NCBI GenBank assembly: GCA_004123355.1
Contig: SCHM01000004.1
Span: forward strand, 496,001 to 560,000
DNA from: Amphirosellinia nigrospora
Taxonomy: Eukaryota; Ascomycota; Sordariomycetes; Xylariales; Xylariaceae
Reading direction: 5' to 3'
DNA: 64,000 nucleotides
Each line of letters opens with the position of its first letter. Within the stretch, counting starts at the first letter, position 1. This document shows positions 34,191 to 63,943 of the stretch, piece after piece. The notes under the pieces are model-generated. The model did no database searches, had not been told where the DNA came from, and saw nothing but the letters and a program-made list of their open reading frames with translations. The translations under genes and the position numbers were made by a program.

Positions 34191-35987
34191 TTATGACAAT
34201 GTAATACCAGTCCACAAGTACTCCCCGTCAATATTGACCCAGTTTTCACCGGCCATGGCTTTATCCCAGCCCATCATCACGGCCAGCAGCCGGCAACCCA
34301 TCGCACTCATAGTGCAGATGACGGCGTCGCTTGCCTCCGCGAGCACGGCCAGATCCATCGCGTAGGCGCGTCCAACCAGCCCTCTAAGCCGCATGGCGTC
34401 GGCCGACGGTTGATCCGGCTCCTCAGACCCCTTATCCAGCGTGTCCGCGTTGTGCAGTGTCGTGCGGCCGAGGTTCCAGAACATGCTTGCGAAGAAGCCG
34501 CCTTCCCAGCGAATGCCTCGTCGACGAACTTGTGCATCGTGGTCTTGTCGGGGGTGGCGGTCTCGGCATGCTGTTTTCCGGCCAGCTTGATTTGCTCCTG
34601 CGCCGGGAAGGAGTTTTTAAACTCATCCGATTCGTATACATCGGGGTTATCCGATGCGAGAACCATGAAGGAGTGCTGCTTGGCGACTATATCCTCCCCA
34701 CCTAAAGGCGTACTAAAGTTGTGGCGCTCCTCGATGAGCTCCTGGAACCTCTGCACGTACTGGTCTAGCGGTATGTATGCACCGTTGTATTGGTATTCAA
34801 GTGGATGTAGGTCCCCTGACGGACGTGAACCCCAACAACGGTACCATCGTTATAGTTCCCTTGCGGTACGCTTGCCTTTGCCTTGATCTCCTTCACGCGA
34901 TTCGTCACGTACGGCCGGTCATCATTATTGAGATGAAACAAGGCCTCGTAACCCGCGCGGGCGAGGTCGTATATATCTCGCTCTCGGTTGATATCGGACC
35001 GTTTACTTCTCTCGTATTCAGCAACGAAGCTATCCCCGAACGCCTCTCGGGCAGTGGCGGCGGATACTATGAGATGTTTTGCGCTTCGGGGCAGGGTAGC
35101 ATTTGGCGCCTCGGTGGTGGCTTGCAAGCCTGGACGGGCGACGATTTGAACATGTCCGTGTACGGGCCATAGGCCCAACGCGAATCATCGATAAAAAATG
35201 CTCGCTTTTCCTTCTGGGCGAGACCATAGGCCGTCCACAACATCATCAAGGTAGGCCCTAATCCAGCGTCGGATGATTCGAGTACGAACGTTATGGATGT
35301 CCTGCAGGTTTCCATATCTGCCAACCCATCCTTTCTTTGTCCTACTAAATGTCCATGATGCCCCTGAGAAGTGGCTGTGTGTGCTTTCCCCCGGTACTCG
35401 GTAAAAGCCCCCTCTTCTCGGCATCCCTGACGTCCATGAAATAAGGATCCTCGTAGTAATAATCGTGTGGCGCCTGCTGTGATAGCTGAGACTTGCCATG
35501 CAGCTCCTTGACATGTGCGGCGACTTCTTGGCATTTGGCGCATATACTTGCATACTCCTTCATGAGAGCGGAAATTCATAGTTTGGCGGGATAGAGACGG
35601 TCCATTTTGATCTGCCTCGCCGATCTGTGACGGTCATGGCTGTTGGGATTTTTGGCAGCTCGTTCTGCCTAAGTACTTCATATTCTTCGCCTCCTTGAAA
35701 AGCCCAACTGGCGACGGGTATTTGCCTCCCTCCTTGTACAAGTGCCTTAGTGATTAGTAGAAGTGCTGCTAACCCCGTTGTCCAGGCTAGTATTCTCAGT
35801 ACACGGCTTGGCCTCGGCGTAGACGGTGACTTGCGCGGCCGCTTCACTAATGCTGGTAAACCTGGTGAGGGGGTGGCGAGAAAATGAGATGGTTGAAGTT
35901 GAATCGTGACGAGGTGGATGAAGTGGGAGCCTTTTCACCTTGATACGAAGCAGCTCTACGAAGGTTCAGCCGGGGCGGAGCAATCAT
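34191..35987 (-). CDS. Type II membrane protein with GT23/fucosyltransferase-like domain (frame broken six times)
   Basis: The start is ATG at 35,987 (MIAPPRLNLRR). With six single-base gaps restored the product would be 600 residues. A basic proline/serine-rich tail (about residues 1-62) precedes one membrane segment (about 63-82, RILAWTTGLAALLLIT), so the rest should lie in the Golgi or ER lumen. Family marks are GLGPTLMMLW, FFIDDSRWAYG, a GVHVRQG stretch resembling the nucleotide-sugar-binding HxRxGD motif of GT23 enzymes, DEAF-WEGGFF, and the C-terminal ICTMSAMGCRLLAVMMGWDK. I infer a NodZ/FUT8-like fucosyltransferase fold; donor and acceptor are unknown. Frame breaks lie near 35,869 (GGGGG on the plus strand), 35,572 (AAA), 35,388 (CCCCC), 35,088 (GGGG), 34,813 (CCCC) and 34,505-34,520. 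Each needs one added base. There are no nonsense substitutions, so assembly errors are likelier than a pseudogene. Confidence 0.65.
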
Positions 35988-38900
35988 CACCTTGGATGGG
36001 TGCCCTGGGAGAGATCCATAGCAGGGGCCATTTTTGCATTCGTGGCGATTTTGGCATAGATTCTAATCCTAAGGGGAATCGAAGGTGAATATCTACTTTT
36101 CACAAGTAGAATCGGGTTGGTTGATGACACTCTATGGTGATGGTAGTAATGACAATGAAAAGGAGTGACGAGATATCGATCCGAAGGAGCGGTAGTGGTG
36201 AGACGACAAGTTAACAAAACTGAAGGAGCGACAAGTGATCAAGATCATGAAGTGGCCATTACAACCAGGAAATTGGATACCATTCCAAGTTCCAAGTTGG
36301 CAAGAATGGTTACGAACGAACAAACAACGTGTGGGCAGGGCCGTCGAGGCCTCGAGAAGATGGTCGGCCCAGGGGAGTGATAATTGAAAAGGCAAGTTCA
36401 GGTCCGGATGCTGACCGAGGCTGGGTGCAATTACACACTCGCCTGGCTGAGTGCGAGGACAGTGGAAGACGATCGTCAGCTCGAAAAGGTAGGTGATAGG
36501 CCGGAGGCAGAGAGGACCCGTGAAGATCTACTAATAGTAGCGTGGCTACGAAGTGGACATCGTCTTGGCGGAGTGACGATGTACCTAGTGTAATATAAAA
36601 TGTGGTCTTATTGGAAGATTACCGTATAAAATTGGGCGGGTTAGATGGGTCGGCCGTACAGTAGATCCATTGAGCTTGGACAAAGTCCCGGTCTGTCAAG
36701 TGACGATCACGAGGCTCGGGGGGAGAAAGGGGAGAGGTTCAGCAAACAACTCGTTATTAAACAACAGCAAGACAACGGCGAGAGATGTTCACTAAGAATA
36801 AGACATGGGCAGAACATGAGTTTGAATTAGTTAATAAAGTCTAGGTTGTCTAGGTCTACTTACACTAGCAGAAAAGGAAAAGCTGGAGAGGTGAGTGGAG
36901 GATGGACAAGAGTTTCAGACGGGAAGGGCCACGAGGGTTGCATGGAATGGAAGTTGCCGATATTTCTCTCTACCTTTGTACACTAGGCTGTACTTACCTA
37001 GGTTACACTGCATTACATGTCTTTACTTTTACACTACTTTTTAAGATCTGAGGAAATTGACAAACATGCTCGTGTAGAAACTAAGAGGTCCTGCCTGACT
37101 CGGTAAGCGATTTATTTTCTGCCCCTCGTCTAGTAATGCGTTGCTCAGCTTTTTCCTCTTTCACTGACTTTATTTGCTTAGGCATAGCTGATGTGGGGAA
37201 GTGTCTGACGATGATGGACGTTTGAAGGATGACATTTTGGGAGTGTGGGGATGCGATGATGTCAGAGCCTATACAACTGGTACGACTAATCAGTACCACC
37301 ATAGAAAGTACAACCAATGTACCACAGATATGGTAAAATATTGGTGCCCCCTCCTATTAAACCACAACTCAACCCTGGGACAAGTTGAACTTGAAATAGA
37401 CAAAAGAAATTAAACATCGGCTCCAACCGAGAAGTAGTGACCTATTTACGACAGGCATATAAATTTGACCCTTCACGATACTGCGCTATGGGGTTATCGT
37501 TACTATAGACTTAGGTACCCCCGAAAAGTGTCCGCATGAATTATGACCACCAAGTCTACGTACGCACCTATGTAGTGTACGTAATCTTCGGCGCCGATAG
37601 ATTTCTTGTGTGCCTATTTCTGTTCTGGGGAGGATTAATGGAGAAACAGATTGGAAATCCTATGTACTGTTAGGAAACCTTCTTTTATAGCGGCTATGCA
37701 GCACTATATCGCAAACTTGTCTAATACTCCGTAGCTTAGACAATCCCCATATCAGAATGCCATCATTCCGCGATTCACCGGGTACCGGTAATTAAAAGGC
37801 CCAACGCTAGGTACTCACATATACTAGATGAACAGAGTAGATATGAAGTCCCCATCCAATTCCGCACTCCGAGAACAGTAAAGCGGACAACCATTGGCTG
37901 GTCTATAAGACGGGCTAGGGTCTCCCCGTCCCTGGGATCCTTGAGTTGATGAAACAAGCTAAGAAAAATAAATCCATGTCATCTGGTTGGCTCGCCGAGG
38001 TTCGCTTGGAGAGGACCCTTCTTTTTTGCTTTTGATTATGTACATGGTTAATACGTACGGATTGCGATATTGGAACATGATATTTTCTTTTCATTTTTAT
38101 TTTTCCCCCAATGACACATTGACGTAATAACATCACTAAACCAAACCCACACTTACAGATGTTCTGCTGCTTTGTAGGGACAGCGAGTGGCACGGGTAGA
38201 ATACGGATACGTCAAGTTCTGATCGCCGGTGACGAGGCCTGTGCCTATACCTATGCCGTTGTCGTGCAATGAGACGAAATGCATAACAGGGGCGCCGACG
38301 ATCTTGTCAGATGTGAAGATGCTGCGGGCAAATGCCTACCAGCCAACCATCGAGCCGCTCGACGACGTGTTACTCTGCCGTTTGCGCAACTCGCTTCCTG
38401 TGACGATGCACTGCTGTACATCCATTTGGAGACGTCCGGCACTTATCATTGGGTCTTTTGCTCTCTCTCTCTCTTCATGCTACGGTGATGCGAGCCACTT
38501 CGGCCGAACACCTCACACAAACAGTCCTTAGTCTCATGCGTTACCTCTGTAACCAATGGTTCCCCGTTTGCTCTGTGTTTGTTGTCTGTTAGCTATCTCT
38601 CCAATACGGACGAGTAGGTATATACCACAATCACACAATCGGTCGAACCCGCTCAAAGTGTAAAGAGTACACCTACACAGCGGGTGGTGCGAACTATCTA
38701 GTATCCGCCGAGAGAGGCCGTTTTGGTGTAAAGCAGTTCATGGTGCCATGACGGTACCCCCAAAACAGATTATTGTCCCCCTTCGTACCCTTCAGATGAC
38801 AGGACCACGATCAACAAGCCGCATCTACTTAGTGTAACTCGCTTTGACCACGGTGATCAGCGCCCCCTATCAAACAGAAAACCCATTCTCCCGGTAGCCA

Positions 38901-39472
38901 AACGAAACGCGGGAGACCAAGCCTAGCCCTACCAATATTTCGCCCCTTTGGGCCAATCGGCCTTGGTCACCGATCGGCCGGGCTCGACTATCTCAACTAG
39001 CGTAAAAGGACATTCCGCCTGCATGATCAGACAAGCAGTGAACTTCGGCCGGCAACTCTACTGACGTCTTACTTTTTTCCACTCTTACCTAAGTGGCATC
39101 GCACCATGTTCCCCGGCTGAAAGCTTTTCCCAGCGATAATCACGAAAAAAGAATACCTCCGGCCTCCTCTCATCCGGCCCGTCCATGTAACAGGGCAACC
39201 TCCGTACAAACGTCCCAGTCTTAAGTAAGGCGGGATCTCAAAAAGCACATCACCACGTCCATGGCATAGCATACCCAAATTCCCACGTCCAATCCCCCAA
39301 CTCGCAAAATAGCACTCATTGCCCTTGTGCCGCTGCCACCACGACACACACCAACAACGCCACCGACCCCAAAACGCGTATCCGGGTCTTTTCTCTACAG
39401 CGTAGTACGGGGCCCAGCCCCAAGTATCATCACCGCCGCCGCCAGGGGCTTAACCCCTAGGGCTGAAAAAGG

Positions 39473-39499
39473 GTAGGTAGGTAGGTAGGTAGGGTAGGT
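39473..39499. repeat. (GTAG)n microsatellite
   Basis: GTAG repeats run about six units with one interruption. A short inverted sequence, AGGGGCTTAACCCCT, lies about 20 bases upstream. Confidence 0.9.
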
Positions 39500-40006
39500 C
39501 TGGGGGCTGAGGGCTGTAAGTAGTACGCGCGCATTGCAACGCAAGCACATATCACGAGCCAGCCGGCCAGCTCTCTACATCGTAGTCCATGATCAAGTAG
39601 TCCCAAACCTCAGCCCAATATCTAGTTATCCATCTTCCCAACACAAAATAGCATGATATATAAGCAACATTTTATCAAGAAAAATGCCATCCTATCGACC
39701 GTGTAAGGACGTAACCTAGAGGGACATAGAATAAGAAACGAGCAACGAGCAAATCGAAAAAAAGAAAAAAAAAGAGTAAATCCAAGACAAGATAAAAACC
39801 CCCATCCATCCATCTTCGGTAAGATCCGTAGACAATCACATCTATCAATCAATCCATCTATCCATCTATGCAAGTACTACCAACATCGCCGTCTACAATG
39901 CATTAGCCCGGCCCATCCATCCTCCATGCCACGCCAGGCCTCAAGCCGACGGACGCCGCAGCCCGCCGTCCGTTTGAAGATCCAGCTGAACCAAGATCAA
40001 ACAAAA

Positions 40007-40045
40007 GCTGGCTGGTCGGGCTGGCTGGTCGGGCTGGCTGGTCGG
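40007..40045. repeat. 13-bp minisatellite, three perfect units
   Basis: The unit GCTGGCTGGTCGG occurs three times head to tail, followed by a partial unit GCTGACGG. It lies in the presumed 3' flank of the kinesin gene. Confidence 0.9.
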
Positions 40046-40965
40046 GCTGACGGGATATTTCTGACATACATACATATTCAATATACCAAAGCCCTTCAAT
40101 GCGTAGTGTAACCCACAAAATCATGCCCCCCCTTCCAAAAAAAACCCCCCCTAAAAAAAACCCATCCACATATGTATGCAGAATCCAGGAGAAGAAAGCT
40201 GAACAATCCCCTTGTTTCCTCAACAGCCGCGATCTACCCAGCACAGCATGATTACTCGCCGCGCCGCATTCACACATGAAAGGGGGGGGATAGGGTCCGA
40301 GGTGGTATTCGTCGAATAATAAATTTAAATTTCCTTCTTCTGATTTGCCCCCTTCCATCTTTCATGTCCTCTCTCTCTCGTTGGAAACTATTTAGCAACG
40401 ATGACGAGGGGAAAAGCAATTATGTACCCGACCGGACCCAGTTCTTTGGATAGATACCCACGGACTAAAGACGCGAGGTCCGTTTGTGTGCGGTTGGCCG
40501 CTGATGAATAATATACAAGACGTATAAACGAGGTATTTCCCACCCTGCCCAAGGCTGTTATAATGACAGAAACAAAAATGCCTTTTCTTCCGTTCGCCCC
40601 CATAAAGCATAACCGAACCATTACAACCGGCCGACATAAATACAGTACAAGTTGCATCATCTCCTCCTCCCTTCTCGTTGACCATTGAAAACGGGTACTA
40701 GGTAAAAAAACATGGGCAATGTAGTACGGTCCGTCCGACTGGATCGAAAGGAACCAAAAGAACACGACATCCACCAGCCTCCTTTTCACCATTGAGAAGT
40801 TTGCACTCCGCCAGCAAACTAGAAACGTAGCAAACAAATACAAGAACAAGATAAGGGGTATAATATAAGCGGATCAAAATAGAAGAGTTCGACCAGAACG
40901 CCGGCTTACTCCATGAACGATTGAAAGGTTGCCGGAGGCGCCATCGCAGGATTGTGGAGGGAAGT

Positions 40966-43871
40966 TCATGCTTCTTGCGTCAATGGTTGCGCCTCGCTTC
41001 CTGCCGGCTGGTCGTTGTGCGGCAGCTCGAGAGCAGGTTGGCTAAGGTCTGCGAGACTGGCTACGTTGCGATGATTGACAACTCGGACACTGCCACGTAC
41101 GCCTCTAACGATTTGACCAGCTTCTACTCGATCTTGAATCATCTCGTCCAACATTTTACTCATCTCATCCACGCTTCGTTTTTTGACAGGCGAGTAGTTC
41201 TTGTTCTTGGCAACAGGAGGATCTGGCAGGGCATCTTGTGGTGGCGGGCTGACCGATTCCAGAAGGAGCGAAGAGCGAGCGTCGCCCCTGAGTGTTTCGA
41301 GCCCTTCGGCGGCGTCCCGTGAGCGAGCTGCGCTACGCAGAGCCGTCAACATCCTGTCTTTATCCTCTAACCTCGCCCGGAGCTCTGCAATCTCGGCATC
41401 TTTCTCCTTAAGAAGTGCGGACACGCTATGATCCTCACCAACCATGATCCCCTTATTTGGGGCAGAGAACCCTGCTGATGTCCTCGACGAGCTAGCCCGA
41501 CGAGCTTGATTCAATCTCTTTTCGAGTGTTGCGATGTATCGGTTTTTGTCGGCGATATCGGATTGCAACGCTTGGTTCTGAGCTTGCAAAGACGCCGTGC
41601 CATCGCCAAACTCGCCGATAGTATCATCGTCTTCATTCGCAGTGGCTTCTTCGCCACTTGAATGTCGTGCGCTTACCGACCTACGCCCTATTGTAGAGGC
41701 CGATGACCCTCTGGAGGCTGTTCTCTCAATTACACTAGGCGCTGTGAGGGAAGTGCGAATCGAGGTTTGCGAGAAACGATTGTGTATGCCCAACGCGCTG
41801 AAGGTACCGTTGGAATTTACTCCAGTGGATTTGGAACTTAGGATCAAGCGGTTAAGATGATCAATACGTTCCTTCAAGGCAGTGCGTGCGAGTTGCATCT
41901 CCAAAATCTGCTCTTCATGTCTTGCCTCCGCTTCTTTCTCTCGGGCGAGTTCCTCTTCCACGTCTTTCTCTTTTTCGGCTTCTTCAGTCTTGTTATGGTT
42001 GGTTTTGGCTTGGGTGTCAAGTTGTTGCCTCAATTCAAGAATCTCCATCCGATACCGCTCAAGAAGCACTCTCGCGCCGCCCTCCCCACCAGCACCTAAA
42101 GCTTCTTCAGCTCGTTTGGCATGGCTCACAATGCTGTTCTTTGCCCTTGACGCAAACTTGAGCGTGTTAAGGGTTTCGGTCGCGTGGGTATTGGCGGAAG
42201 CAGTGCTTCCTGCGGAGCCGGTTTGGATGGTGCAGAGAATGCTGACAAGTGAATTGCCAGATAACGCGCCTTGCAGTAATCTAGTGAGCTTGCTGTCCCT
42301 GTAAGGCAAATGCTTCCCATCTTTATCTCCGCCCTTCCCTTCTTTCTCCTTATGTTTGAGAGCTTCGAGATCACAGTTCCAAGAGTCAGCAGGCTCTTGT
42401 TGATATGGGATCCTTCTTGCCGGCGTTCCTTTGATTCAGCAGCTTTTTCGGAGCCAGCCAGATCAATCAAACTTAACGTGGATACGCGAACGCCACCTGG
42501 GAAGATCCCTGAGCGTTTGCCTTCTGCGCTCGAGCCTCCTGGCAAACGTTCTCTGCTCTCTACAACAATTTGCACAACAGCGTGGCTGCGAGAGCTTCGT
42601 GCATTAAATTGTGTGCTGGCAGTCCTCCGGGCTTGATCACCGCGCGCAATTACCCGCAGCAACTGGGTGGGACTTTGTACAATCTCTTCTTTCAAAGGGG
42701 TCGCATAAACACCTCGTTTACTGTCTTCTCGAAGCTTAATCTCTTCCTGGGCGCTGCCTGCCCCGGCAGCATTCGCTGTTGGCATGCTAAGAAGATCGTG
42801 TATCCTCTCGTTATAGATTTCAAGGTAGCTCACTCGGAGCAGAAATTCCCTGGTTGGCGTTTCCCGAATATATGAGAATATATCGGTTATAGCCAGTGGG
42901 ATTACGCCGGGAGACGAGGCAGTGCCCTGCATGGAGAACGTCTTGCCTGTCCCCGTCATACCATATGCGAATACTGTTCCGTGGTAACCTTCCATCACCC
43001 GGCGAACTAAGCGCTTCGCGCAATGGTCGTATACACGGCTATTGTCGTCGTGGGTCGTGAAAACATTATCTTTAAACAGTTAGCAGAGTCGACCGTCAGA
43101 GGGCGTGAAACCAACCATAGTAATAATCGCCTCCCTCGCGTCCACGATATGCAACAAGCGACTTGCGACCGTCAACCATCCATTCCCCCTCCGTTTGACC
43201 GTTACTACCGCCAGCATCGGGTCGTACACGAATACTGACAATGACATTTCCTTTGCCGTCCAAACCCTTAGAAGTACGCTTTTCCTTAAGACCAACTGCA
43301 TTCGACTCTAAAGGGTCATCATAGGTAGTAGCTGATGTTGAGCAGGAACCTTGCGCCGAAGAGCTACGGCTTTGAGGCGGAGAGGCGATACTAATCAATC
43401 CATCCGAATGTCTCGTACCAGCCCCGCTCAGTAGCGATTTGCCATCCCACCTCCGTTTAGTAGGCTGGGCGTCGTGTTAGACTGGTAGCCACCTTTGGAT
43501 GTCAACTGAGGAGTGCGAGCTCTCCTGGCTGGCGTAACAATCCCAGAGAGTGGACTCGGAGGCATACTTCCCGATCGGCTCGGAGGTTGTGGGAATGAGT
43601 TGATGCTAACTGTTTTTCGGATTGATCTCCCGGCGCTGTTCACTCCAGGACCCCTCGGGGTCGGAAGAGCGCCAGTTGGTGCCGGAGACAAAGGAGCACC
43701 ATGTAAGGATGTCGCAGATGGCGCTCTCAGTCCACTTCTGGGTGCGCCTGGATTTCTGGTAGGGCTCGAGAATCCGCCGGTGCTCTTCCGACTCTTCGGC
43801 CTGGGTAAAGCCGGAAGAGCGCCCGTTGGGGGATCATTGGATCCTCGTAACCGTGGTAATGTAGTCGCCAT
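40966..43871 (-). CDS. KIP2: Kip2/KipA-family kinesin motor protein
   Basis: Two exons: 43,871-43,116 and 43,069-40,966. A 46-nt GT-AG intron with a CTAAC branch site splits an Asp codon; the joined text YDNVFTTHDDN is classic kinesin. I chose ATG at 43,871 (MATTLPRL) over an upstream in-frame ATG at 43,901. An N-terminal Ser/Pro/Arg-rich extension of about 190 residues precedes the motor. Motor marks are the P-loop GMTGTGKT (about 289-296), switch I NARSSRSH (about 408), switch II LIDLAGSE (about 455) and LPYRDSKLTRLLQGALSGNS. Coiled-coil-rich sequence follows. The length would be 953 residues. The N-terminal motor with a basic Ser-rich extension fits the Kip2/KipA group, plus-end-directed kinesins acting in microtubule growth and polarity. 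Two frame breaks, at GGG (43,446-43,448) and AAA (42,355-42,357), each need one added base inside conserved sequence, so they are probably sequencing errors. Confidence 0.88.
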
Positions 43872-46800
43872 TGTAGTTTGGTATAGGGACGCGTCGCGCA
43901 CGAATTTGTGGTTTTGAGAGGAGCGGTTTGCGCTTCACGCCTCCATGAGGTTCGTGGTGCCGGTGTATAGCGGGTGCGGAATGTGATGTTGCAGCGCTGT
44001 TAGGGACTAAATCGAGAATAATTGCCCTAACGAGAGGTCTCGCCCCGCACTCATAGCCTAGACACTAGGGATCGAAGTATTCAATGGTATGGTCGAATAG
44101 ATTGGATATGATAGACGGTCTATGACTCTGGAAGGACAAATGGGCTGACTGGTAAGTTGATTGGCTGGCGATTCGCAATCTTCGTGGAGCTGGGCAACAA
44201 GAATTGGGCAGAGATGGTACTCCAAATGCGGAAACCGTCAGAAGGCGAGGTCCAGGTCTATCTCAGCAAACCAGATTAGTTCAATATGTATAGATCTGTG
44301 AGAACTTTAATTGGAGGGGAGCAGTTCGCGCTCTCTGGCAACACGTGGAAGAAATGATGGCGCAGAGGTAGGGTTAGGTGAGATGGACCAACTCACGCAA
44401 GTGGAAGATAATGATACAGTCAAGATAGGGAGTATCACGACCCTATAGCTAGAACCAAACCAGAACAAAATCTGTTTTTTCGAGCCCGTTACAAAGAGTG
44501 GCAGAGGGAGTAAATCGGCTGTCGGGCGTCTCTCGTGAGACAAGGTGGGATCAGTCTCAGTTAGCAGTTGAAACCTTGCGCTTTCTTCTCGTGTAGCACC
44601 GTAACCTATTCCAGCCAGAGCGGTTCCACGATGGGCAATGCGAAAGATTAAACCGGTCGGGTGTTGTATATACTATTGTAGGTTTTGGGCCTTTTTGGGT
44701 TCGTCAACTGGTCGCCACAGCCACTTCCCGCCCAGCCGAGGTCAAGCGTAGAGAGAGAGGGATAGATAGATGGCGTGTAGAATGCGAGAAGAGAGAACGA
44801 GAAAGTACAGCTACCGAAGCTGCTTCCAAGCCTGTATGTGATGGCCGAATGCGATTGTCGCTGCCAGTGCAGTAGCGATAGAGAGACTTGTTCCTCCCCG
44901 GGAAAGCATAAAACCCAGCTACGCTGGAAGCCTCAGGTTGTCGTGGTGGCGCTGGTACGCTGGATGCTCGCTGTATGGGCTGCACTGTAAGGAGACTATG
45001 CGTAGCGCCAATAAGTTGCTAGACTTGGGTGGCAGTACCAGCTCAAGCACAAGCAACAAGCAGCCACGGACTGACTGACTGACTGGATCTTTGGAGTAAA
45101 CCACGATGGGCTGGTAAGTATTGATTGATTGATGATCCAAATACTCAAGGTACCATCAACCGATGGAACCTTTCACCTGCAGTGTAGTGCAGTGCGGTCT
45201 TCAAGTGGTCAATTTAGGGGTCAGGACCAGGCCAGTCGGGTCGGGGTAGATGATGATCTAGTGCAAGTACGTGCGCACAATGAGATAGACAAGCATTGCT
45301 ACGAGGCTAACGGGGACCTGTACCCTAGTCCAATACGTAGTGTCGCTGCTAGATAATCTAGACTGAAGCCGTAGCGTTGGTCATGTCAGTGATTCCCGAT
45401 GGGGTCTAGCAGCGTCGTTGGGGTGTTGAACCGAGAAATAGAGCGCTCATCCTGCGTATGATCCCCAGTATCACCCGTCATATGCTTGGCCGAGTGTGTA
45501 AGTACTTATCTCCGCATAAGGTACCAACCTTCCCTCGCCCATCGACTGAAAGCTACACTACAGTAAAAAAGCAGGTAAGTAATTCTGCGTATAGTGTACT
45601 GTACTGTACACGTATCTTCGGTTTGCGTGCAACGTAGCAAGATACCCCTTTAGTAATCGGACGAATGAGGCACTCCGCCTTTAAATATCAAGATCTAAGT
45701 TAGCTTTTGCTGCACATGACGACAAGTCTGTCTCACTCTTCCTGCTCTACTGTAAGTACAACCTATCAGTACCAGTTATTTTTTTATACCAACATGTCCA
45801 TGTCTATCTAGTGTACTAAATTCATCAGCCTCTCATTAGCATCTCGCACCACTGCCGCCAGTGGATCATAAATTTTACCACTATCACCCGACCCTGACCA
45901 GGTTCTAATTCCTAGACAATTTCCAACCGCGGCCTAACGTAGCACATCCCAGCCAATCTCATTCCATGAACCCTGCTATTTCGCAGCATACCCTGCATAA
46001 GTTGTCGACCATACTCAGATCAACCACCAATACCCGGCTAACAACCGCTATGCTAGGTCGTATAATATTGATATTATATCCATGGGGGTGAATATGGGGG
46101 AGATTTAAAGAATGACGAGGAGCTTGTGAATGGTGTTCAAAGGGACTGGAGTATAAAGCATGCTGGTGAAAGTGTGGGTGTGTATCAAGGCCACAACGTG
46201 CGTACCTGGACGGGATGAGATAACCTGTCACACACATCTCGTATTATATAGTGTACTGATATTCCTTCATAAATCCATGTGGCTCTGAGGGGCGATTTAC
46301 GAGTACGTTGTCGCCGCACAAAAGTTGTGGGAGCTCGGCACAACTCCGATTCCTACTGATGAGACTTGAAGCTAATTACGGTTAAAGACTCGACCAGTCA
46401 TTATAGGTGCCCCATTATCTACTATGTACAGCCACGAGGTACTTCCCTCCTTCACAGATTTGTAAATAGTTACCAAGTATTCGACAGTCTGTCTATCGCT
46501 TCTCTCAAGCCATACAACATTCCCGCCAAGCTATGCCTCGACAACTCCGATAACGGGTTGGGATCACAGATTGGATCAAAACTGTCGAATGCGACGCGCC
46601 ACCACGCGCTTCTAGATTTCCCCTTGTTCGACGCCACGTCCATCTGAAATCCATTGGCAGTTGGCCCAGGGAAGGATTTGAGATGAGAGACCAGTAGGAG
46701 CCGCAGGTGTAGTTGCAGATGTGACCTTTCGACGCAGGTCCAATGCCACTCATTTCGAGTGGGCTTGCTTGCCGTCCCCAGTACGGTAGCGTCGCCGAAA

Positions 46801-48723: not shown

Positions 48724-48755
<32 letters not shown>

Positions 48756-49991: not shown

Positions 49992-51251
49992 TTACCCAAT
50001 AGCACGGACGCCCCGCCCAACGCTGCGTGTCTCGAAGACTTCCACGAGGCCGGCGCCGACGGCCTCCTGTAGCACCCATTCAAAGGTGAGACCGTAGAAT
50101 TGGCGCCACTTCCTCGTCTGCCCAGGTAGCACACCGGTAAACTCGCCACGCGCCCTCCTCGCTGACGTCTCGTCGATCTTCACAATGCCACCATCCCAGA
50201 GCTCCCTGAGGACGCACTCAGGGGCTTCACGGAACTTGGACTTGCCCAGTAACGACATTAGATGATCCAGAGCCGTAGAAACTAGTTTTAGAAACGAACC
50301 TGCCCCCGGGACTGCAAGTCTGTATTCTGTAGAAGGGGAATGCGTCAGACATATGGCGGATAAAGAGCCGCCGCCGCTGCCGCCGGCATTATGTAAGGCG
50401 CCCTCGCCACCTACTGTGCCGATAGAGCCTGCGGCCTGTCGCGACACGGTCTCCAAGGACGTGAGGGTGATCTTGTCCTCGGGGCGGGCATACGAACGCA
50501 TGGTGCCGGATATGGCGCCGTGGCTGACAACGCCACCGGTATGCTGCGCGGTAAGGAAACCCGCGTGCACGAGCTCTTGGATCTCAGACGGCCTCAGCGC
50601 ATCTCTGCGCAGGACCTGGGAGTCCGGATTCGACGCCAGGAAGTTCAGCAGATTCTCCCTAGCACCGTCGCCGAGCGCCGTCGTTTTCCGGAGCGATGCC
50701 TCGTAGTCCGAGGCCAGCACCACGAATTCGCCGACGACGCCACGTCGCGGCACCACGATGCGGCGTAGGAACCCCCGTCGCGTGAGCTCGGCCACCTCCC
50801 TCTCGACGGCGCTCGGCGACGACAGCAGCGCCTGTACGTGCGCGATGCTCACTATGGGCGGGAGATTTCGGCGGTAGTTGAGCGTCTCGGCAATGCGGGT
50901 GGACGTCATGCCCGCAGCCGTCTCGGGAACGGGCGCAAACATACGCGTGCGGATGTATTGGATAGCCTGAGGCGTATCGCGAAGGTGAAGGTCGGTCGCA
51001 AGGGCCGTGACGAGGCCGAAGTCGTCAAGTTTGTCATCGCCGAAGAAGTCGTCGTCGTCGTTTCGGGCCTTGCTCTTTGTTGTTTTCGCACCGACTCCGG
51101 GTTTGCGACGGGGCAGCGAGGAAGCCCATGACGGAGCGGGCGATGCGGATGATGAAGATGTGGATCGCTTTGCGCTCGGCTGACTCGACAACGTCGACGA
51201 AGTCTTCTTCTTAACCCGGCCAGAGCCTCCCAAGATCGACCTGAGGCTCAT
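49992..51251 (-). CDS. STK19: STK19 family winged-helix protein
   Basis: An intact, intronless 419-codon frame from ATG at 51,251 (MSLRSILGG). The first 65 residues are Ser/Lys-rich and low in complexity, ending in an acidic DDDDFFGDD stretch. The body carries fungal Stk19-domain marks: DDFGLVTALATDL, IQYIRTRMFAPVPE, MTSTRIAETLNYRRNLPPIV and VVPRRGVVGEFVVL. STK19 was named as a kinase, but the human protein is built of winged-helix domains that bind nucleic acid and has been linked to transcription-coupled DNA repair; I see no kinase motifs here. A nuclear DNA- or RNA-binding role is inferred from the family. Unlike several neighbours it has no frame break. The degenerate DUF3435 gene ends about 180 bases upstream on the same strand, so the promoter must lie in or beyond that relic. 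Confidence 0.85.
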   Translation of the reverse strand: MSLRSILGGSGRVKKKTSSTLSSQPSAKRSTSSSSASPAPSWASSLPRRKPGVGAKTTKSKARNDDDDFFGDDKLDDFGLVTALATDLHLRDTPQAIQYIRTRMFAPVPETAAGMTSTRIAETLNYRRNLPPIVSIAHVQALLSSPSAVEREVAELTRRGFLRRIVVPRRGVVGEFVVLASDYEASLRKTTALGDGARENLLNFLASNPDSQVLRRDALRPSEIQELVHAGFLTAQHTGGVVSHGAISGTMRSYARPEDKITLTSLETVSRQAAGSIGTVGGEGALHNAGGSGGGSLSAICLTHSPSTEYRLAVPGAGSFLKLVSTALDHLMSLLGKSKFREAPECVLRELWDGGIVKIDETSARRARGEFTGVLPGQTRKWRQFYGLTFEWVLQEAVGAGLVEVFETRSVGRGVRAIG

Positions 51252-51427
51252 TTTTGGTCATGACAGGAGTGATCATGACTGAGGTGACAGCCTCGGGCCT
51301 TCGACGTTGTGAGTCAGTCGGGACAAAAAGGCTGAACCACGCCGTTTCAAAGACATACCTAATTGGAAGTGGGATGTACATTGGCCCCACGGCGGCAAAT
51401 GCTGGCCGCCTAAGTCGGTACCTACTC

Positions 51428-52519
51428 CTAACGACTTTTAGGGTGCTCGGTAAGGTTCCGCCCCTGCCAATTATAAGCATAGGCGAACTCCCCGATTGCC
51501 TTGATCCATTTGGTCATCATATCTCTCGTCCGATAGCTGCCAACCCATATAGGTCTGGCATGCCCTACGGAATACGTAGGTTTTTTTTGAACCGGTCGTT
51601 GAGAGGGATCGGTAGCTTCTTCTTTCGGCCTTCATTGTAAGCGTCGCAAGTTCATGCGGGTCGGCATTGAGCACATCTGAACGAAACACTTGCTGGTATA
51701 TCAAAATGCCCAGAAGAAAGACATGAGGACTGAGAAGTAGACTAGGATCCTCAATAACCTCGGGGATTATAAAAGTTTTGCTTTCGATGTTAGCATACGA
51801 ACACCGCCGGCTTTCGGGAACATACACGGCCTTGCTGCCAAGGTATTTTTTTGTGAACTTCAACGAGAACGAGATGACGAGGTTATGAGGCCGGTCATTA
51901 TTTGGGTCGCGTACTAAATCCAGACGCAAATCCCCAAAGCGGAGCTTTAGCAATGAGTCGGGTCGCGCGCCGGCGGGTGCCATTAGAAGAAGAAACAACA
52001 CAGCCGAAATACGTAGCATGCCGAGTTTAAACATCTTATCTGTCGTGCTTAATGTTGTCTCGATCTGCAACTTCAAATCTTCGAGTGACATCGGCCTGTT
52101 TTCTTGTTTTTCGGTCGTCAAGTCGTGAGTAGCGCAAAGACTTAATAGCGCCTAGGTGGTGGAGATATATCAGTCCACGGAACAATCTTTTAATAACGTC
52201 GTCATCTGTCGTCTTGTTCCTTGTGCGTACACCTTCCGTTTGAAAATCTCGTCATCGTGGGCTTGTATAGCTTGCTAGTAGAACTCGGGGCCTGGGATGT
52301 TTACATTTAACTTGCTAAAGTCGAATTTTGAAGGGTCGTTCTCAGATTCTTGGACGTCTGCTTCAAAACTTTTATATCTTGACGTCGAGACGGTGCTCGG
52401 GTTTGTATCTGCCCAAGTGTCTCTTCAACTTCTTCGTCGAGCTCCGCAGTCTCGTCGCAGTCGAAATCGTCTCCGGAATCCTCGTTAGAGGTGTTGATAT
52501 ACTCAGAGTCTGAATGCAT
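51428..52519 (-). pseudogene. DUF3435 (FluG-domain) tyrosine-recombinase-like pseudogene
   Basis: The uninterrupted core (52,121-51,471) contains PMSLEDLKLQIETTLSTT, PAGARPDSLLKLRFGDLRL, SLKFTKKYLG and VIEDPSLLLSPHVFLLGIL, hallmarks of DUF3435, a family that includes Starship captain recombinases. The likely start is ATG at 52,519 (acidic N-terminus), with FSKLNVNIPGPEFY just downstream in a shifted frame. After the core, WIKAIGE is read in another frame before a stop at 51,428. The C-terminal part that would carry the HxxR and catalytic tyrosine is missing. Shifts go in both directions and there is an in-frame TAG in the N-terminal part, so this is a true pseudogene. It may be a former captain or only a cargo or solo family member; no element ends were identified. 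Confidence 0.75.
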
Positions 52520-52950: not shown

Positions 52951-54337
52951 ATGTCCCAAGACGAAGCTAAGTTGCGCGTCTCCCACTGGCTTGCAGCTCA
53001 ATGCTCACAATCCCTGATTGAAGAGCAAACGAATCATCGTCTCAAGCGAAAATACAAGAATTTATCAACGAACGACATTGACACCAAACAGTGTGACTAC
53101 ACGACGCTATCATCGCCGCCCTTACCGCCGACACCCGATCTATGCTACCATCGAAGCCTGCGAAAAGACAGCGTCGAGCTCAAGATATAACCGACGAAGA
53201 AGATGCAGGTAGTTCCGAGGGCGGCGATAGCGCCAACAAGCAAACCCCCCGTCCAAGGACGACCAACACCAACATCATAAAAACGACGTCCGAAACCTCT
53301 TTGGACCCGACCGACTCCGCTTCGTCACTTAACGTCTCGCGTACTTCGTCCCCGTCGAAGCAACTACAAGGCATGAGTTTGATTGAGGATGGTTTCGTTC
53401 TGGACAAGCTATCTATTTCAAGCTCAGCTATCCCCGCTGATCTAATGCAGCTTGTCGAGGAGATGGACCAGATAAGTCAGGGCTTCGGCATCCTCTCCAC
53501 TGCCGCTCAACATGAGGTCCAGAACAGCGGGCTACGCTTCGCAAGCTATGTCTTTGCGCAAAATAAGGAGGCTACAACTGAGGCTAGCCCATCTTTCATG
53601 TCGCCTGCTACGGCCAAAATGATATCGGAGAGGGCAAACCAGTGTGAGCTGCGGCTTGAAGACGAAGCCTCGTGGAATATGGAGGTACATCATCACCTAC
53701 TACGTCGAGTGTGCCGTCCTCATGGTCGCACTGGCCTGGTAGATTTTGTATCTTGTACCACTGCACGTATCGCTCCTGCGTATCGGCCACGTAATGCGCC
53801 GAGCAAGATGGTTGACTTTTGCTTGTATATCAACCCGACGCACGAGGGAAATCTCGTCCGCATTAAAGGCCGAATAGATACTCTCCGTTGCCGTCTCCCA
53901 CACAACACTATTAACCATACGGATTATGCGCCGTTGTGTGGTTTGCCTATCGGCCCATCCATCGAGACGAAACCCTCGGCTCAAGATTGGAAAATGGCCA
54001 CGCTTCAGATGGGCACGTGGCAGTCCGCCCAGCTAAGGGCCATTTCAGCATTACAGCGGAGTACAGCACCGGCGTCTCTATCGGCTTCCAGTCCGTCAGC
54101 CATTACCTACTTTCCTAGTATTATTGTCAAGGTCATGACTGGTACTTTACAGCCACAGCAATACGTGACGATGGCGTTAAGGCTTTTTTGAGTAAGATAA
54201 CCATTGGGAGTACCGAGACGCCATTAGGCGTATACAAGATATCGGCTGCTCTACAGTGTCTTGTGCGTTGGTTTCGGGACGTTTATTGGCCATTGTATAA
54301 ACTCAAAATCCTTAAGTTAGCCGGGCATCCTTCATAA
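52951..54337 (+). CDS. Fungal PD-(D/E)XK nuclease-like protein
   Basis: The start is ATG at 52,951 (MSQDEAKLRVSHWLAAQ); the stop is TAA at 54,335-54,337. Restoring one base at each of two breaks (CCC at 53,134-53,136; AA/GG at 54,129-54,132) gives 462 residues. The N-terminal 150 residues are basic and Ser/Thr-rich. The nuclease-like core has ASWNMEVHHHLL, a KMVDFCLYINP strand, NHTDYAPL and SIETKPSAQDW. Candidate catalytic residues are E245, D289 and E339-x-K341, in the D-(D/E)XK layout. After the second break the frame continues with GHDWYFTA and ends with a Trp/Tyr-rich tail. This matches an uncharacterised lineage-expanded fungal family; its substrate is unknown. It lies head-to-head with the DUF3435 relic, which suggests an accessory region. 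Confidence 0.72.
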
Positions 54338-56919: not shown

Positions 56920-57708
56920 ATGCCACCTGTGGTGATTCTCATTCGCCATGCACAGGCTGCCCACAGTGAATATACCATACCCAACCGTCCTCAGCATAAT
57001 AGATACTGACGATCCTAGATATTGACAATAAGTGACCCTGCGCCCCATGTATAAATACATGAGAGCTAACGGCGTGAGCACATGACTGGTCAATATTCGA
57101 TCCTAAGTTGACAGAGAAAGGCATAAATCAATGCAAAACCCTGGCAGATCAGCTTGAGGCAAACTTTCCTTACGGTACCGACGGTTGCCGTATCGTGGTC
57201 AGTCCATTATCACGGACGTTGCAGACAGTCCAGCATTCACTCGGATGGCTGTTAGAACGCGGTGTACCGGTTGTGGCGCGCGCGGAATGGCAGGTAGGAT
57301 ACCCCTAATTGAGATTATAGCATATTACGTACTCATCAGAAGCAAATAAAGGAAGACACAGCCAACCCCTGTGATATTGGCACCGGGAGACCTGAGCTGG
57401 AGAAAAACTGGCCAGATTACGACTTCTCACAGCTGGATCCGGTCTACCCCGAGAAAACAGGCCTGTATGGGCCGGAGGAGGAGACGATTCGGAAGAGAGC
57501 AGCAGTTGCAAGAAAATGGCTTTCTGAGCAGACAGACAAGTGTATCGTTGTCGTCACCCACTCGGGCTTTCTCCATAGGGTCGTGAAAGGACCGAGATAT
57601 AGGAATGTGGAATACCGGACATACAAGATAGAAGGGGATGGTTCGGGTGAAGTTGAATTGGTCGAGTTGACGGAACAGAGCAAGGATATACCAGGAAGGG
57701 AAGAATAA
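56920..57708 (+). CDS. Histidine phosphatase (phosphoglycerate mutase-like) protein
   Basis: Three exons: 56,920-56,965, 57,079-57,293 and 57,340-57,708, coding for 209 residues. Intron 1 (113 nt, GTGAAT...GCTAAC...GAG) splits a codon; intron 2 (46 nt, GTAGGA...CAG) is in phase 0. The N-terminus MPPVVILIRHAQAAH has the phospho-accepting His in RHAQ. Downstream are DPKLTEKG, VVSPLSRTLQT (second Arg of the phosphate pocket), EWQ, a PCDIGTGRPEL stretch and VVVTHSGFLHRV with the second His. This is the branch 1 histidine phosphatase superfamily, soluble and cytosolic by appearance (no signal or membrane segment). The substrate cannot be told; these small fungal members are usually annotated as phosphoglycerate mutase family phosphatases. 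No frame break is seen. Confidence 0.83.
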
Positions 57709-59148
57709 GTTGTCTGTTGGTGACGGGTTTCCAATATCCCTCAAAATACTTGATGACTACGAAAGAGAGCGGTGAGAATCCGCCGGCCGGCGAAATAAAC
57801 CAACTGCCTAATTCTTTGTCCTACGGGTTTGCTGTACACCACCTCCTAAAGGAACGGTACGCATCATCACTACATGTACCTGTCAACTGGAATTTTTTAT
57901 GTGGCCGAGATTTACCATGGGAAACCAGCTTGTTGGCAAAAACTGACTTCCCTCAAACGAACGGCTATCTTGGTCTGGCACTAGATTCAAATCGAGAGAC
58001 TGTAGAGAAGTTGGTCTTTCGAAGCAATCGAGAAAGATTGTGAATTGGACGTGCTGTTGAATGTAAAGAAAGAAAGAAGCCAAAAATAAAAAATTGGCGC
58101 ATGTGACTCCAAGAAAATAAAGAGGCGTTGGTTGGCGACCCTTATCGACAAGGACCACGCTAGCCGGATTTTCGCCCGACTATGCTACTAGCAGTATGGT
58201 GTGGTACACAACAGCTCAATGTCGGACAGGACATGTCTTTCAGCTGACCAGATGTGCTGCCACGACGTCATACTCGAACAGCTGAATGACACAATAGAAG
58301 CAAGCACCCGCTCTACCCAAGCAATGAGCGAGTGTTGTCAGCGAGTTCGTTCCTCGTCCTACTTATTAGTGTAAGTCCGTAAGACCATTAGGAGGCGACC
58401 CATCAGGGTCCTCGTCGCCTGATCAGAGGCGTTCACTCGGCTGACCCACCAACCATCACCGTCCCCCATCAGACGGTTCCATTTTAGTCGAACTTAATCA
58501 TCGGGAACAGACGCCATGTGCTGAGGATCTGTTACATCTTTAGATCTCTCCTTGTTTAAGTTCACTACACGTGCGAAATGCAGGCTCATGATTCGCTACA
58601 CATCACACGCCGGTGGGTGCCACCTGTTCGGCTCAGGACTTTGTAGTGGTCTGGCGACTGGCTTAGAAGAAGAGGGAAAATGATAAAAAGAGTATCGAGT
58701 CGCCGGCGCCCACCTGGCTGACTTGCTGGCTATCATTTCTTTCGTCTCGGTCTACACGGCAACATAGTGGACTTAGATCCAAACCATCTCTTGCCTCGTT
58801 TTCTTTTCTTCGGCGCTTTTGATAGGCTGTTTCAGCCCCAGATCGGCGCCCTGACGCAAGGCGATCCTCTACATAACCACGCTATCCCGATTCTGCCCCG
58901 ATCAGACCCTGCCAAGTTGCACTTTATGACCTGGATGTTTAATGACCTGATGACGGAATCGCAGCCGGGCTACGGGTGCTAAAAAAAATAGGGAAAAAGA
59001 GAAAAAAGTACCAAATAGTTCTGCGCGTTAGTCGGGAACTCTTATGCTATCTAGAACTGCTCTTCCTTCCGCTGCGACTTGTATGCGCAAAACCCTCACT
59101 ACCTAAACACGCTGTATTCAGCTTAAAGAGCGCCCTTCGTCGTGCAGC
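57709..59148. other. Intergenic, PPN1 upstream region
   Basis: Short frames (57,717-58,043, 108 codons; 58,767-58,982, 71 codons) show no domain. The right part is the 5' flank of the endopolyphosphatase gene. No promoter motif could be singled out. Confidence 0.5.
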
Positions 59149-61291
59149 ATGGCACCGCTAAAGGCCCTCCAATGGGCAACATTGATGGTCCCCAACCTGC
59201 TGGCGCAGCTCCCTCTTAGTGCAGCAGCAACCGAAACCCAGGCTGTTCTGCAGCCCCCAAATGATCCTGGTAGCGAACAATCCCTTGCTACCTCACAGCG
59301 TCGCCTTCGCGGCAGATTCCTCCATATCACAGGTATGCCCGCTACACCACCATTTTCATAGTCAAGCCATAGCGTGCGCATCTTAATTGTTAAGGACAAT
59401 GTAGATCTACACCCCGACGAGCACTACAAACCCCACACATCGACCCAAGAGAACATCGCATGCCATCGCGGTCATGGACTTGCTGGTGTATACGGCGCCG
59501 AGACGTCGGACTGCGACTCGCCCTTATCACTAGTGAATGCGACTTTGGCTTGGGTTAGAGAACACCTAAGGGACGAGATTGACTTTGTTGTCTGGACTGG
59601 TGACTCTGCCCGCCATGATAGCGACGAGGAGATACCCCGCCATAATAAGGATATTTTATCTATGAACCGTCGCATTGCCGATGCCTTCGTGGACACCTTC
59701 TCAGACGACAAGGGCTTGGTTGTTCCCGTAGTGCCAACTTTCGGTAATAACGATATTTACCCTCACAATATTCTGATGCCTGGACCCAACGACATTCTTA
59801 GGACATATAGCAATATTTGGAAGCCATTCATACCCGAAGCTCAGCGGCACTCATTCGAATTCGGTGGCTGGTTTTACGTTGAGGTCATACCTCGAAAACT
59901 TGCCGTATTTAGCCTCAACACCATGTACTTTTTCGACCGTAACGCTGGCTTCGACGATTGTGTACATCCTTCCGAGCCCGGGTACAAGCATTTAGAATGG
60001 CTGCTGGTTCAGCTCGAGTCTTTGCGTAGCCGTGGCATGAAGGCCATCCTCATGGGACATGTCCCTCCTGCTAGGACATCGGGCAAGCAACTATGGGACG
60101 AAACATGCTGGCAAAAATACACCTTATGGTTGCACCAGTACCGCGACGTTGTCGTCAGTTCTCTGTACGGTCATATGAATATCGACCACTTCTTATTACA
60201 AGACGCAAAAGATATCGATATGGCTTTGATTCGGGCCCCGGCTAAAGGCAAAGCTTCAACCCGCGACAGCATGGACGAAGAACTCTCGATTCAGTCCGGC
60301 GCCGGCTACTTGAAAGAGCTCCGTGATGATTGGGCTAATCTGCCGGATCCTGTTGCTCTAGAGCGAGGTGTTGACGGGACGAAGAGGCGAGGTAGGGGTA
60401 AGAAAGGCAAAGATAAGCTTGGCAGCAAATGGGCAGAACGATTTCAGCTTTCTCTCATATCCCCAAGTATCGTGCCCAATTATTTCCCAAGTCTCAGGGT
60501 ATTTGAATATAATATCACTGGGCTCGAAGATAACCCTACTTGGGTAGATACTGCAAGAGTAGTACCGGTCAATGAGGACGTCTCCGACCAAGACGAGATG
60601 CCTGATGTTGGCGAGCTCAGAAGACGCCAGATGCCCGATTTCGAGGTTGAAAAGAAGAAAAAGAAGGACAAAGGCAAGAAAGGCCCGAAACCACCGAAAG
60701 ACCCGAATCTACGCCTTCCCGACCCTCCCGCAAAGGGCACCCCGCCCGGTCCGGCGTACTATCCCAGACCCTGACACTGCTTGGTTTCACGCAGTATTAC
60801 GCGAACCTCACATACATCAACAATGACGTCGCTGGCGACGAGGATGTGTCGTCCTGGGGTTGGAACCCGGGAAACACAAGGGAAAGACTCCTAAGCATGA
60901 CAAGCCACAACCCAGAAAGTTCGGCTTCGAGGTCGAGTATAGCACGTTTGACGACAAGATCTACAGACTCGACGATCTTACGGTGAAGAGCTTTGTGCGC
61001 CTCGCTCACCGCATAGGACAGGCGTCTAAGAAAACTAAGTCGTATGCGGAAGACGAGCTGGACGATCTGGTCACAGACTATGAAGTCGACGAATACGACG
61101 TAGACGAAGACGAATACGACGACGATGAGGAGGAAGATTATGTGGATAGCGAGTTCGACGTAGAAGAGTCTGCTAAAAGCGACAAGAAGAAACACAAGGG
61201 CAAGAAGAAAAAGGCCCGCAAGACGTGGCTGCATTTCCTGAAGCATGCTTTCGTCAGCACCAAGAGCACAGATGAGCTCAAGGACTTGTAA
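59149..61291 (+). CDS. PPN1: Endopolyphosphatase Ppn1 (vacuolar metallophosphatase)
   Basis: Exon 1 is 59,149-59,332; exon 2 starts at 59,405 after a 72-nt intron that splits the Asp codon of ITDLHPDEHYK. The N-terminal hydrophobic stretch (about 8-28) fits a signal anchor. Calcineurin-like metal-site motifs occur in order: D62-x-H, GDSARH (127-132), GNND (175-178), GHVPP (279-283) and GHMNIDH (317-323). A basic linker with KKKKKDKGKKG follows, then an Asp/Glu-rich stretch and the conserved end WLHFLKHAFVSTK. The length is 690 residues if one base is restored at CCC (60,763-60,765) and one at AAA (60,872-60,874). The conserved text continues across both breaks, so these are probably sequencing errors. 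The enzyme cuts inorganic polyphosphate internally in the vacuole. It converges on OFD1. Confidence 0.9.
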
Positions 61292-61853
61292 TAGCCGAAC
61301 TAAAACAGGATCGGCATTGGTTGTTGCTTTCCCTGCGATTGATATTTCGGCATCTGATATTGGGAATTGTATCTTATAAGCAAGCTGGGCGTTTCGGCAG
61401 GTGTTTAGCATTCACGCATTATGTACGGCGTAGGACATTGTCTGCATCTACATTGTTTGATTATGGTTATGGTTGGTCAAGAAAGGAATGGGAAGAAGGA
61501 AAGCGAAAGAAGGCTGGTCTGTCGGGGTATTATACACCCTATACACTTAAACTACGGTTGCCTTGTGCGTAGATATTAGAAATGGATACCAAGAAGTGCT
61601 TCCTAAAGTTGGTTGAGGCGAGTGGAAATTCTACACCATTACATAGCAACGACATGGACATATCCAGTCGAGGATTAGACTAGATCAGGATCCCTTAAGC
61701 GTACATCTAAATAGGGTAAAAAAAACATTGAAGATATTCATTCACTCAATCATTACTATCTAGACATGGTATCAAGACACTACCTAACCTCAAAAATCTA
61801 ACTTTTCCTTTTTCCCTTTCCCATTCCCTTTCCTTTGCCATTCCTTGCTTTCA
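61292..61853. other. Intergenic region between convergent PPN1 and OFD1
   Basis: These 562 bases hold the two 3' ends. A CCTTTTTCCCTTTCCC-type pyrimidine stretch lies near 61,805. No gene or clear polyadenylation motif pair is identified. Confidence 0.5.
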
Positions 61854-63943
61854 TCACCTCAGTCGATTAATCTTAGTCAGAGTCACTATCCTCAGAAGGC
61901 GAGAACCCTTCCACTCCTCCTCGGTATCATCAGCGAGGGGGTCGATATATTCCTCCTCCTCGTCGACGTCCTCCTCGACCTCGAAGGAACCGCAGACGTC
62001 CCATCTATCGCCCTTGGCGCGGCGGCTGACGTATTTCACGAAGCGCAGCACACCTTTATCGTGCAGCACGAGGCTCATGCGGTTCCACGCCGCGGCCTGG
62101 AAGAACAGTATATTGTCGCCCCCTCCTCGTCGTTGCTGGATTTGTAAATGGCCGCGTCTTCGTTGTCGTCGCCCTCATCTGTCGCCATGTAGACCTCGTG
62201 GCCACCTACCTCCCCTGTTCCTTCTTCTTCCCCCTCCTCCTCGTCCTTGTGTTTGCGTTTCCTCTTAGTACTGTCTTTCTTCCCCTTCGTCTTCGAAGCT
62301 GTCGCTTCGCTGTCTTCCGCCTCGTCATCCCCTTCTTCCGCGCCTCCCCACCCTTTGTGGGGGTGATGCCGAGGTTCAACTCCAGCCGCGGCTTGCCCTC
62401 GTGGCCCGTGGCCAGCGTGTAATCTTTCCCGCGCCGGAACCGCCGCGCCAGGATGTCGTGGCTCTCGATCGTGCAACCCGTCGCGATCTGCAGCCACCGG
62501 CGGAACTGGCGGCTGGGGAGGAACTCGTCGAGGAGCTCGCGGATCGGAGAGTCGGCTTCGTCGGCTTTGCTCGGCTTTCCTTTCTCTTTGCCGCGATTCT
62601 TCTTCCGCTTCTCCGGAGACGGGGGTAGGTAGAGGTATCTGTGTTTGTGCGGTGGCTTCGCTACGCGCCAGGATGTCTCTTTCTCGAGCTTTGCGGTATC
62701 GTCAGGTAACTCCTCGCTCGCCTCTTCCTGCGCCTTCACATAGGCGCGCAGCCGCGTCGCGAACTTCTTCCCTAGTAGATTCGGGAGTGTGATGCTTGAG
62801 TTCACGTCGAAGTACTCCGAGATCTGCTCGAGGGTGTCGGGCGTCAGGTACGTGGGGGCCATGAAGCGGAGGAGGAACTCAAGGTCGGCTTCGTCGAAGT
62901 CGGCCTCACCCTCCTTGACGGGGACGGGCTGCGGCCGGGGCGCGTCGTACTGGTCCGGGTTGCCCTGCAGCTGCATGAGGCCGCTGTTCTTGGTATTCTG
63001 CTCCTCGGCGCCCGCGACGTAGCCGTCCTCGCCGACCTGCGGGATGTGGAACCACCCTGAGATGGCCATGCGCACGCGCCCGCCCTCGCGCACCAGTTGC
63101 GCCTTGGAGTCGGCGTGGTACACCTCCTCGACGTCGTGGAAGCTCCTCCCCGGCTGCACGGCGAAGAAGCTCAGCTGGTTCCACGCCGGCGGGATCACCT
63201 TGCTGACGTCCGGGATAGGGGTATGCGCGACCTGCCCGTCCTTGCCCTCGATCGTCTTCACGGGGAAGAGCCGGAGGGCGCGCCCCATTCCGACTTCCAG
63301 GGGATGTCCGGGTCGGTGAGGTAGAGGATGTAGCTGACCTTCCGGCTGCCGATGACATCGTCGTGGCACAGCAGGTAGCAGCCGGGGGTGTAGACGTTGA
63401 TGGCCATGTCGGTCTTGCGACCGCTGAGGGGGCCGCAGCCGGTGACGTGGGCTATGTAGTCGCGGAAAGGTTGGGAGTACATGGCGTCGCGCAAGGCCAG
63501 GAGTGAGGGTAGCTTGGCGAGGGCATCGTCGCCTAGCCCGTCGAGGTTGGCGAGGTCGCCCGACTGGTGGATCTTGTAGATGTCGGTCTCCTTGGGCGTA
63601 AACATGACATTCTCCTTGATCTCGTTGCGCACAGAACGTAATAGCTTATCGTCGATCAGCTCGTGGATGACGGCATGCTTGTACGGCGCCGACTCGGCAT
63701 ACTCCTGCGTATACTGGTTAAGAACCTTCTTGTCGAAGAGTCCTTTCCTGAAGCGTTTTTGGGCATCATCTTTGCTCGGAGCTATAAATTGGTGTTAGCC
63801 TTTGGCTCATCTTCTATCGCCGCTATCCTATTCCATTCCTTCTGGACCTCCCAGCGCCACTGACTAAACGACTTACAGCTCTTGGTCTTCTTCTTGGGGT
63901 GTGCCTTGTCCACGACCTGTGGCTCCTCTGCTTTGCGCTTCAT
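61854..63943 (-). CDS. OFD1: Prolyl 3,4-dihydroxylase, Ofd1/Tpa1 (OGFOD1) family
   Basis: Exon 1 is 63,943-63,877 (MKRKAEEPQ); a 95-nt GTAAGT...TATAG intron precedes exon 2 (63,781-61,854). The length is 665 residues with three bases restored. The 2-oxoglutarate/Fe(II) dioxygenase domain is clear: [19 protein letters not shown] (metal ligands H162, D164), [19 protein letters not shown] (third ligand about H238) and [12 protein letters not shown] (2-oxoglutarate Arg near 258). A second, degenerate double-stranded beta-helix domain follows, with Lys/Glu-rich insertions, and [21 protein letters not shown] near the end. Family members hydroxylate ribosomal protein uS12 and, in fission yeast, regulate sterol-responsive transcription under low oxygen. 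Frame breaks lie near CCCC (63,283-63,286), GGGGG (62,359-62,363) and 62,110-62,120, each one base short, again probably errors. Confidence 0.9.

Follow-up and report, generated by a model that had tools for sequence, protein, structure and literature searches.

Frame breaks in conserved genes of a fungal genome assembly almost certainly reflect one-base losses in the consensus

The main finding of this study is that the repeated frame breaks seen in neighbouring conserved genes of this fungal assembly are almost certainly errors of the consensus, in which single bases have dropped out of the assembly, some of them at least within homopolymer runs, and that the genes are presumably intact in the organism. 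The source would be an insufficiently polished long-read assembly, in which case accurate reads would restore the frames. Such an explanation had been put forward in the initial annotation of this DNA, and it is now supported by three lines of evidence: breaks of the same kind occur genome-wide, intron-sized gaps scored in the same way show no directional bias, and telomere repeats and 5S rRNA genes lack bases as well. The missing-base pattern is best read as an ordinary sequencing artefact of a known kind, not new biology.

The window—the whole 64,000-base stretch that was analysed—corresponds to positions 496001-560000 of contig C6, and the genome searched comprises 48,114,038 bases in 11 contigs. 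Base composition changes sharply along the window, with a G+C content of 7-16% over the first 30 kb and about 44-61% from 32 kb onward. Positions 1-30000 form an AT-rich block of about 30 kb that is centromere-like and adjoins normal gene-bearing DNA. To judge by its gene content and its short introns of GT...CTAAC...AG layout, the DNA resembles that of a filamentous ascomycete.

Frame breaks in five genes of the window

The genes, their break zones and one unbroken gene used for comparison are as follows, where -1 denotes one missing base and +1 one gained base.

34190..35740, minus strand: GT-like open frame (three-frame reading and codon model), with five supported -1 breaks and a sixth that is unstable
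About 35564-35577, 35346-35416, 35116-35165, 34766-34821 and 34485-34519, minus strand: 90% break zones of the GT-like gene (codon model)
35641-35690, minus strand: zone of the unstable sixth break of the GT-like gene (codon model)
40966..43934, minus strand: kinesin gene (Pfam pieces, open reading frames and codon model), with one supported break
42337-42401 (codon model) and 42321-42350 (Pfam boundary), minus strand: zone of the supported kinesin break
Near 43430-43476, minus strand: second, N-terminal kinesin break (offset between open reading frames only)
49995..51257, minus strand: Stk19-like gene, unbroken comparison, with 421 codons in one open frame
52951..54334, plus strand: PD-(D/E)XK (PDDEXK_12, PF20516) gene, with one break in zone 54132-54169 and another near 53102
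59362..61291, plus strand: PPN1-like metallophosphatase gene (PF00149), with two -1 breaks in zones 60685-60764 and 60843-60877
61857..63794, minus strand: OFD1/TPA1-type prolyl hydroxylase gene (PF13661 and PF10637; structures TPA1 3kt1 and ofd1 6e0t)
63262-63305, 62324-62349 and 62109-62125, minus strand: the three -1 break zones of OFD1 (codon model)

Breaks were called with a codon model in which a lost and a gained base cost the same; its training set was made up of unbroken pieces totalling 4,124 codons. In simulations with single indels the net direction was correct in 200/200 cases, most of the test pieces having also served as training pieces. The model was run on trimmed segments and then repeated on longer ones at three penalty settings, and calls no more than about 45 bases from the end of a segment were discounted as edge effects (kinesin 41009 -1, PD-(D/E)XK 54326 +1, and GT-like 34201 -1 and 35894 -1). 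The trimmed-segment run gave 13 breaks, all -1 (six in the GT-like gene, three in OFD1, two in PPN1 and one each in the kinesin and PD-(D/E)XK genes), and the set supported after the stability runs again numbers 13 and is again all -1, with five in the GT-like gene, three in OFD1, two in each of PPN1 and PD-(D/E)XK, and one in kinesin. All three OFD1 breaks, both PPN1 breaks and the break in kinesin exon 2 (near 42352) were stable in every run, and the PD-(D/E)XK break near 54145 and the GT-like breaks near 35146, 34802 and 34506 were likewise -1 in all runs. The second PD-(D/E)XK break, near 53102, was -1 in all three of the longer-segment runs that cover the site. The initial annotation had listed 15 breaks in five genes, each one base short. 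Thirteen of these are borne out by the codon model, including all those listed for OFD1 (three), PPN1 (two; this name comes from the annotation, the family match here being PF00149) and PD-(D/E)XK (two), while the sixth break in the GT-like gene and the N-terminal one in kinesin are not.

The claim that the conserved protein resumes across the breaks agrees with the Pfam matches where a profile exists, as in OFD1, kinesin and PDDEXK_12. The OFD1 match spans four frames, each of which is one base short of the preceding one. In the PDDEXK_12 gene the match ends at profile position 196 and restarts from 195 in another frame, and in kinesin profile positions 272 and 273 sit in different frames. 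As for the N-terminal kinesin break, the open reading frames 43431-43934 and 43099-43476 do differ by a one-base-short offset, but the codon model never placed a break there, and only one of the two kinesin breaks initially listed is thus supported. The Stk19-like gene serves as an unbroken comparison, and its PF10494 match (E 9.9e-90, profile 2-278 of 278) lies entirely in one frame. The codon model added a cancelling -1/+1 pair at its N terminus in every run, which we take as noise with no net break since one open frame spans the Pfam match.

The coding score of the GT-like gene is weak (6.0 over 1541 bases, versus 104.8 over 1791 for OFD1), and the GT23-like label the gene had been given is not upheld by sequence: neither its pieces nor its read-through gave an accepted match to GT23 (alpha-1,6-fucosyltransferase) in Pfam, NCBIfam or PDB chains, or to any other family or solved structure. 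GT11 gave a sub-threshold hit (E 0.075 with one of the pieces, E 0.28 with the read-through), and other hits were unrelated or likewise below threshold. Six breaks had been reported, five of which are supported, with some variation between runs. The break near 35576 was -1 in 8/9 runs, and that near 35346 was -1 in 6/9, a pair of +1 calls taking its place in the other three. The sixth proved unstable, its call varying with segment ends and penalty (-1 near 35665 in 2/9 runs, +1 near 35764 or 35663 in 6/9). The five supported breaks are in excess of the 1.2 expected from the other genes (P 0.007; for six breaks, P 0.0013).

Runs of identical bases at the breaks

The initial annotation placed almost every break at a run of three to five identical bases, which is true as seen, although at the resolution of the break zones it does not significantly exceed chance. 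For 19 zones—those of the 13 trimmed-run breaks, including the unstable sixth GT-like one, and of six TCP1-family breaks (see below)—the longest run touching the 90% zone was compared with random placements drawn from the same genes. Seventeen of the 19 touch a run of at least three bases versus 15.4 expected, an enrichment that is not significant, and the summed run length gave P 0.09. Losses linked to runs were seen only in telomere repeats (GGG to GG) and in 5S rRNA genes (C5, G4 and CCC). When run lengths in the window were compared with a geometric expectation, long runs were not clearly short in supply.

Conserved families across the genome

Because gene decay should be local, we made a genome-wide profile search for six conserved families (TCP1, HSP70, kinesin, tRNA-synt_1, actin and adaptin), which covered 63,942 matched bases; the tally is confined to neighbouring matches separated by no more than 400 bases, and four joins of an odd class are left out of it. 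It contains 36 direct frame switches without room for an intron, one of which is the window's own kinesin break. Twenty-six of these are at offset 2, equivalent to one lost base, and 10 at offset 1. In 22 of the 36 the two matches meet with no more than two bases of discrepancy: 15 of these joins lack exactly one base, five lack two, two have two bases too many (equivalent in frame to one lost) and none has a single base too many. The offset-1 switches consist of the five joins that are two short, each of which is also compatible with a single gained base if the protein lacks one residue of the profile, and of five that are loosely aligned (gaps of 4, 4, 13, 34 and -17). In the same tables, the direction of intron-sized gaps is split 10 versus 12, so the tally method has no evident directional bias.

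One-base-short breaks were found on other contigs, including in TCP1/HSP60-type and HSP70 loci. Six of the 10 TCP1-family loci contain a direct switch, and others occur in HSP70, kinesin, tRNA-synt_1, actin and adaptin. When the DNA of the six switched TCP1-family loci was read, conserved stretches mostly passed from frame to frame. At one TCP1 locus (C1:3159210) the codon model placed a gained base in all three runs. Two conserved loci on the window's own contig, C6:4018175 and C6:181474, are unbroken in their matched part. The TCP1-family loci are of types that we take to be CCT subunits or mitochondrial HSP60. Each of these proteins is essential and as a rule encoded by a single-copy gene, and the six broken loci therefore cannot all be pseudogenes. 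The further statement that no insertions were seen holds for the 13 supported window breaks, all -1, but an absence of insertions is unproved, since a few joins read as one gained base or two lost.

Telomeres and 5S rRNA genes

Sequences that are never translated were also short of bases. TTAGGG arrays are present at four contig ends (the right ends of C1, C4, C5 and C9), and in the same repeat search no CCCTAA array of four units turned up at any place in the genome. The other contig ends viewed mostly stop in AT-rich DNA. Parsing of the four arrays, leaving off the last piece of each, showed that 129 units are perfect TTAGGG whereas 46 pieces deviate from it; TTAGG accounts for 30 of the 46, and one piece has an extra base. 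This rate may not hold elsewhere because contig ends are possibly low in coverage, and some of the variation is possibly real. Replacement of telomere repeats by TTAAAA, CTTCTT or CCCTGG repeats is described as a signature of nanopore miscalling (PMC9414165). None of the four arrays contains these repeats, a result that is compatible with nanopore data all the same.

A search for 5S rRNA genes, in which 47 of 2,127 first-look candidates were scored, yielded at least 33 matches, all 33 of which were aligned. These genes (L037-L069) are dispersed and of at least two sequence types. Among 13 near-identical copies, eight are shorter and none is longer, with losses in a C5 run (six copies), a G4 run (two), CCC (one) and a CG pair (one). 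The C5 run is one short in six of the 13, so the majority alone leaves its original length unproved; the four copies of a related second type have five. Insertions are limited to three of the 33 copies, all of them diverged (L066, L068 and L069, with 15, 9 and 40 substitutions, respectively). Missing bases in telomeres and 5S rRNA, both untranslated, argue against recoding in translation.

Alternative explanations

Pseudogene decay of the five genes in the neighbourhood of the centromere-like block is very improbable as an explanation, despite the AT-richness of the window's first 30 kb and the fact that the gene nearest to it, the GT-like one, combines an excess of breaks with a weak coding score. 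The 13 supported breaks share one direction, the OFD1 profile match persists across all the breaks in that gene, and similar breaks affect TCP1/HSP60-type and HSP70 loci on other contigs. In the GT-like gene itself all supported breaks are of the same sign, as is more readily explained by a locally poor consensus than by decay, although real decay may have occurred in addition to the loss of bases. We give still less credence to short introns as the cause of the frame changes. Intron-sized gaps (about 50-70 bases) are common in the tallies, and one frame change in kinesin (about 43080-43125) is indeed accounted for by an intron of about 46 bases with a GT...CTAAC...AG layout, identified by eye. 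However, the gap at 20 of the direct switches measures -1 or -2 bases, which leaves no place for an intron, and the intron-sized gaps do not share the directional bias of the direct switches.

The resumption of the conserved protein after each break, mostly at one offset, is also what would be expected from programmed -1 frameshifting, in which the ribosome routinely re-reads one base, the genome being correct and the proteins whole. We nevertheless regard this as extremely unlikely, since telomere repeats and 5S rRNA, which no ribosome translates, are short of bases too, and some conserved loci (C6:4018175 and C6:181474) are unbroken in their matched part. Its extension to the whole genome—one-base re-reading in translation, with the assembled frames correct and the telomere and 5S variants representing separate, real variation—is scarcely credible. 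Loss of bases from the assembled sequence thus remains by far the best explanation.

Relation to known cases and implications

There are precedents for this. In the chromosome-level assembly of Drechmeria coniospora, conserved genes are described as frame-broken by homopolymer indels until polished with short reads, and polishing as introducing more insertions than deletions (PMC7500977). The present case appears similar in that conserved fungal genes would be frame-broken by the residual indels of a long-read assembly. It appears to differ in the balance of errors, as losses dominate here. The account of Kastor, concerned with nanopore assemblies of bacteria, describes gene-splitting deletion errors in runs of two to eight bases, mostly four to five (PMC12007338). 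Base losses that split genes are common to both cases, but Kastor deals with bacteria for which close references exist (PMC12007338), whereas our analysis is reference-free and its run enrichment at coding breaks is not significant.

In practice, gene models built on this assembly would be fragmented or interrupted by spurious introns, and genes that are essential might wrongly be listed as missing from it. At the same time, broken TCP1/HSP60-type genes and telomere arrays offer rapid internal checks for which reads are unnecessary and which could be tried on any assembly.

Finally, between the Stk19-like and PD-(D/E)XK genes, the window contains a DUF3435 fragment (51471-52151, minus strand; PF11917, E 3.3e-36, profile 2-170 of 418), which looks truncated. 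Among the members of this family are tyrosine recombinases responsible for the mobility of large fungal elements.
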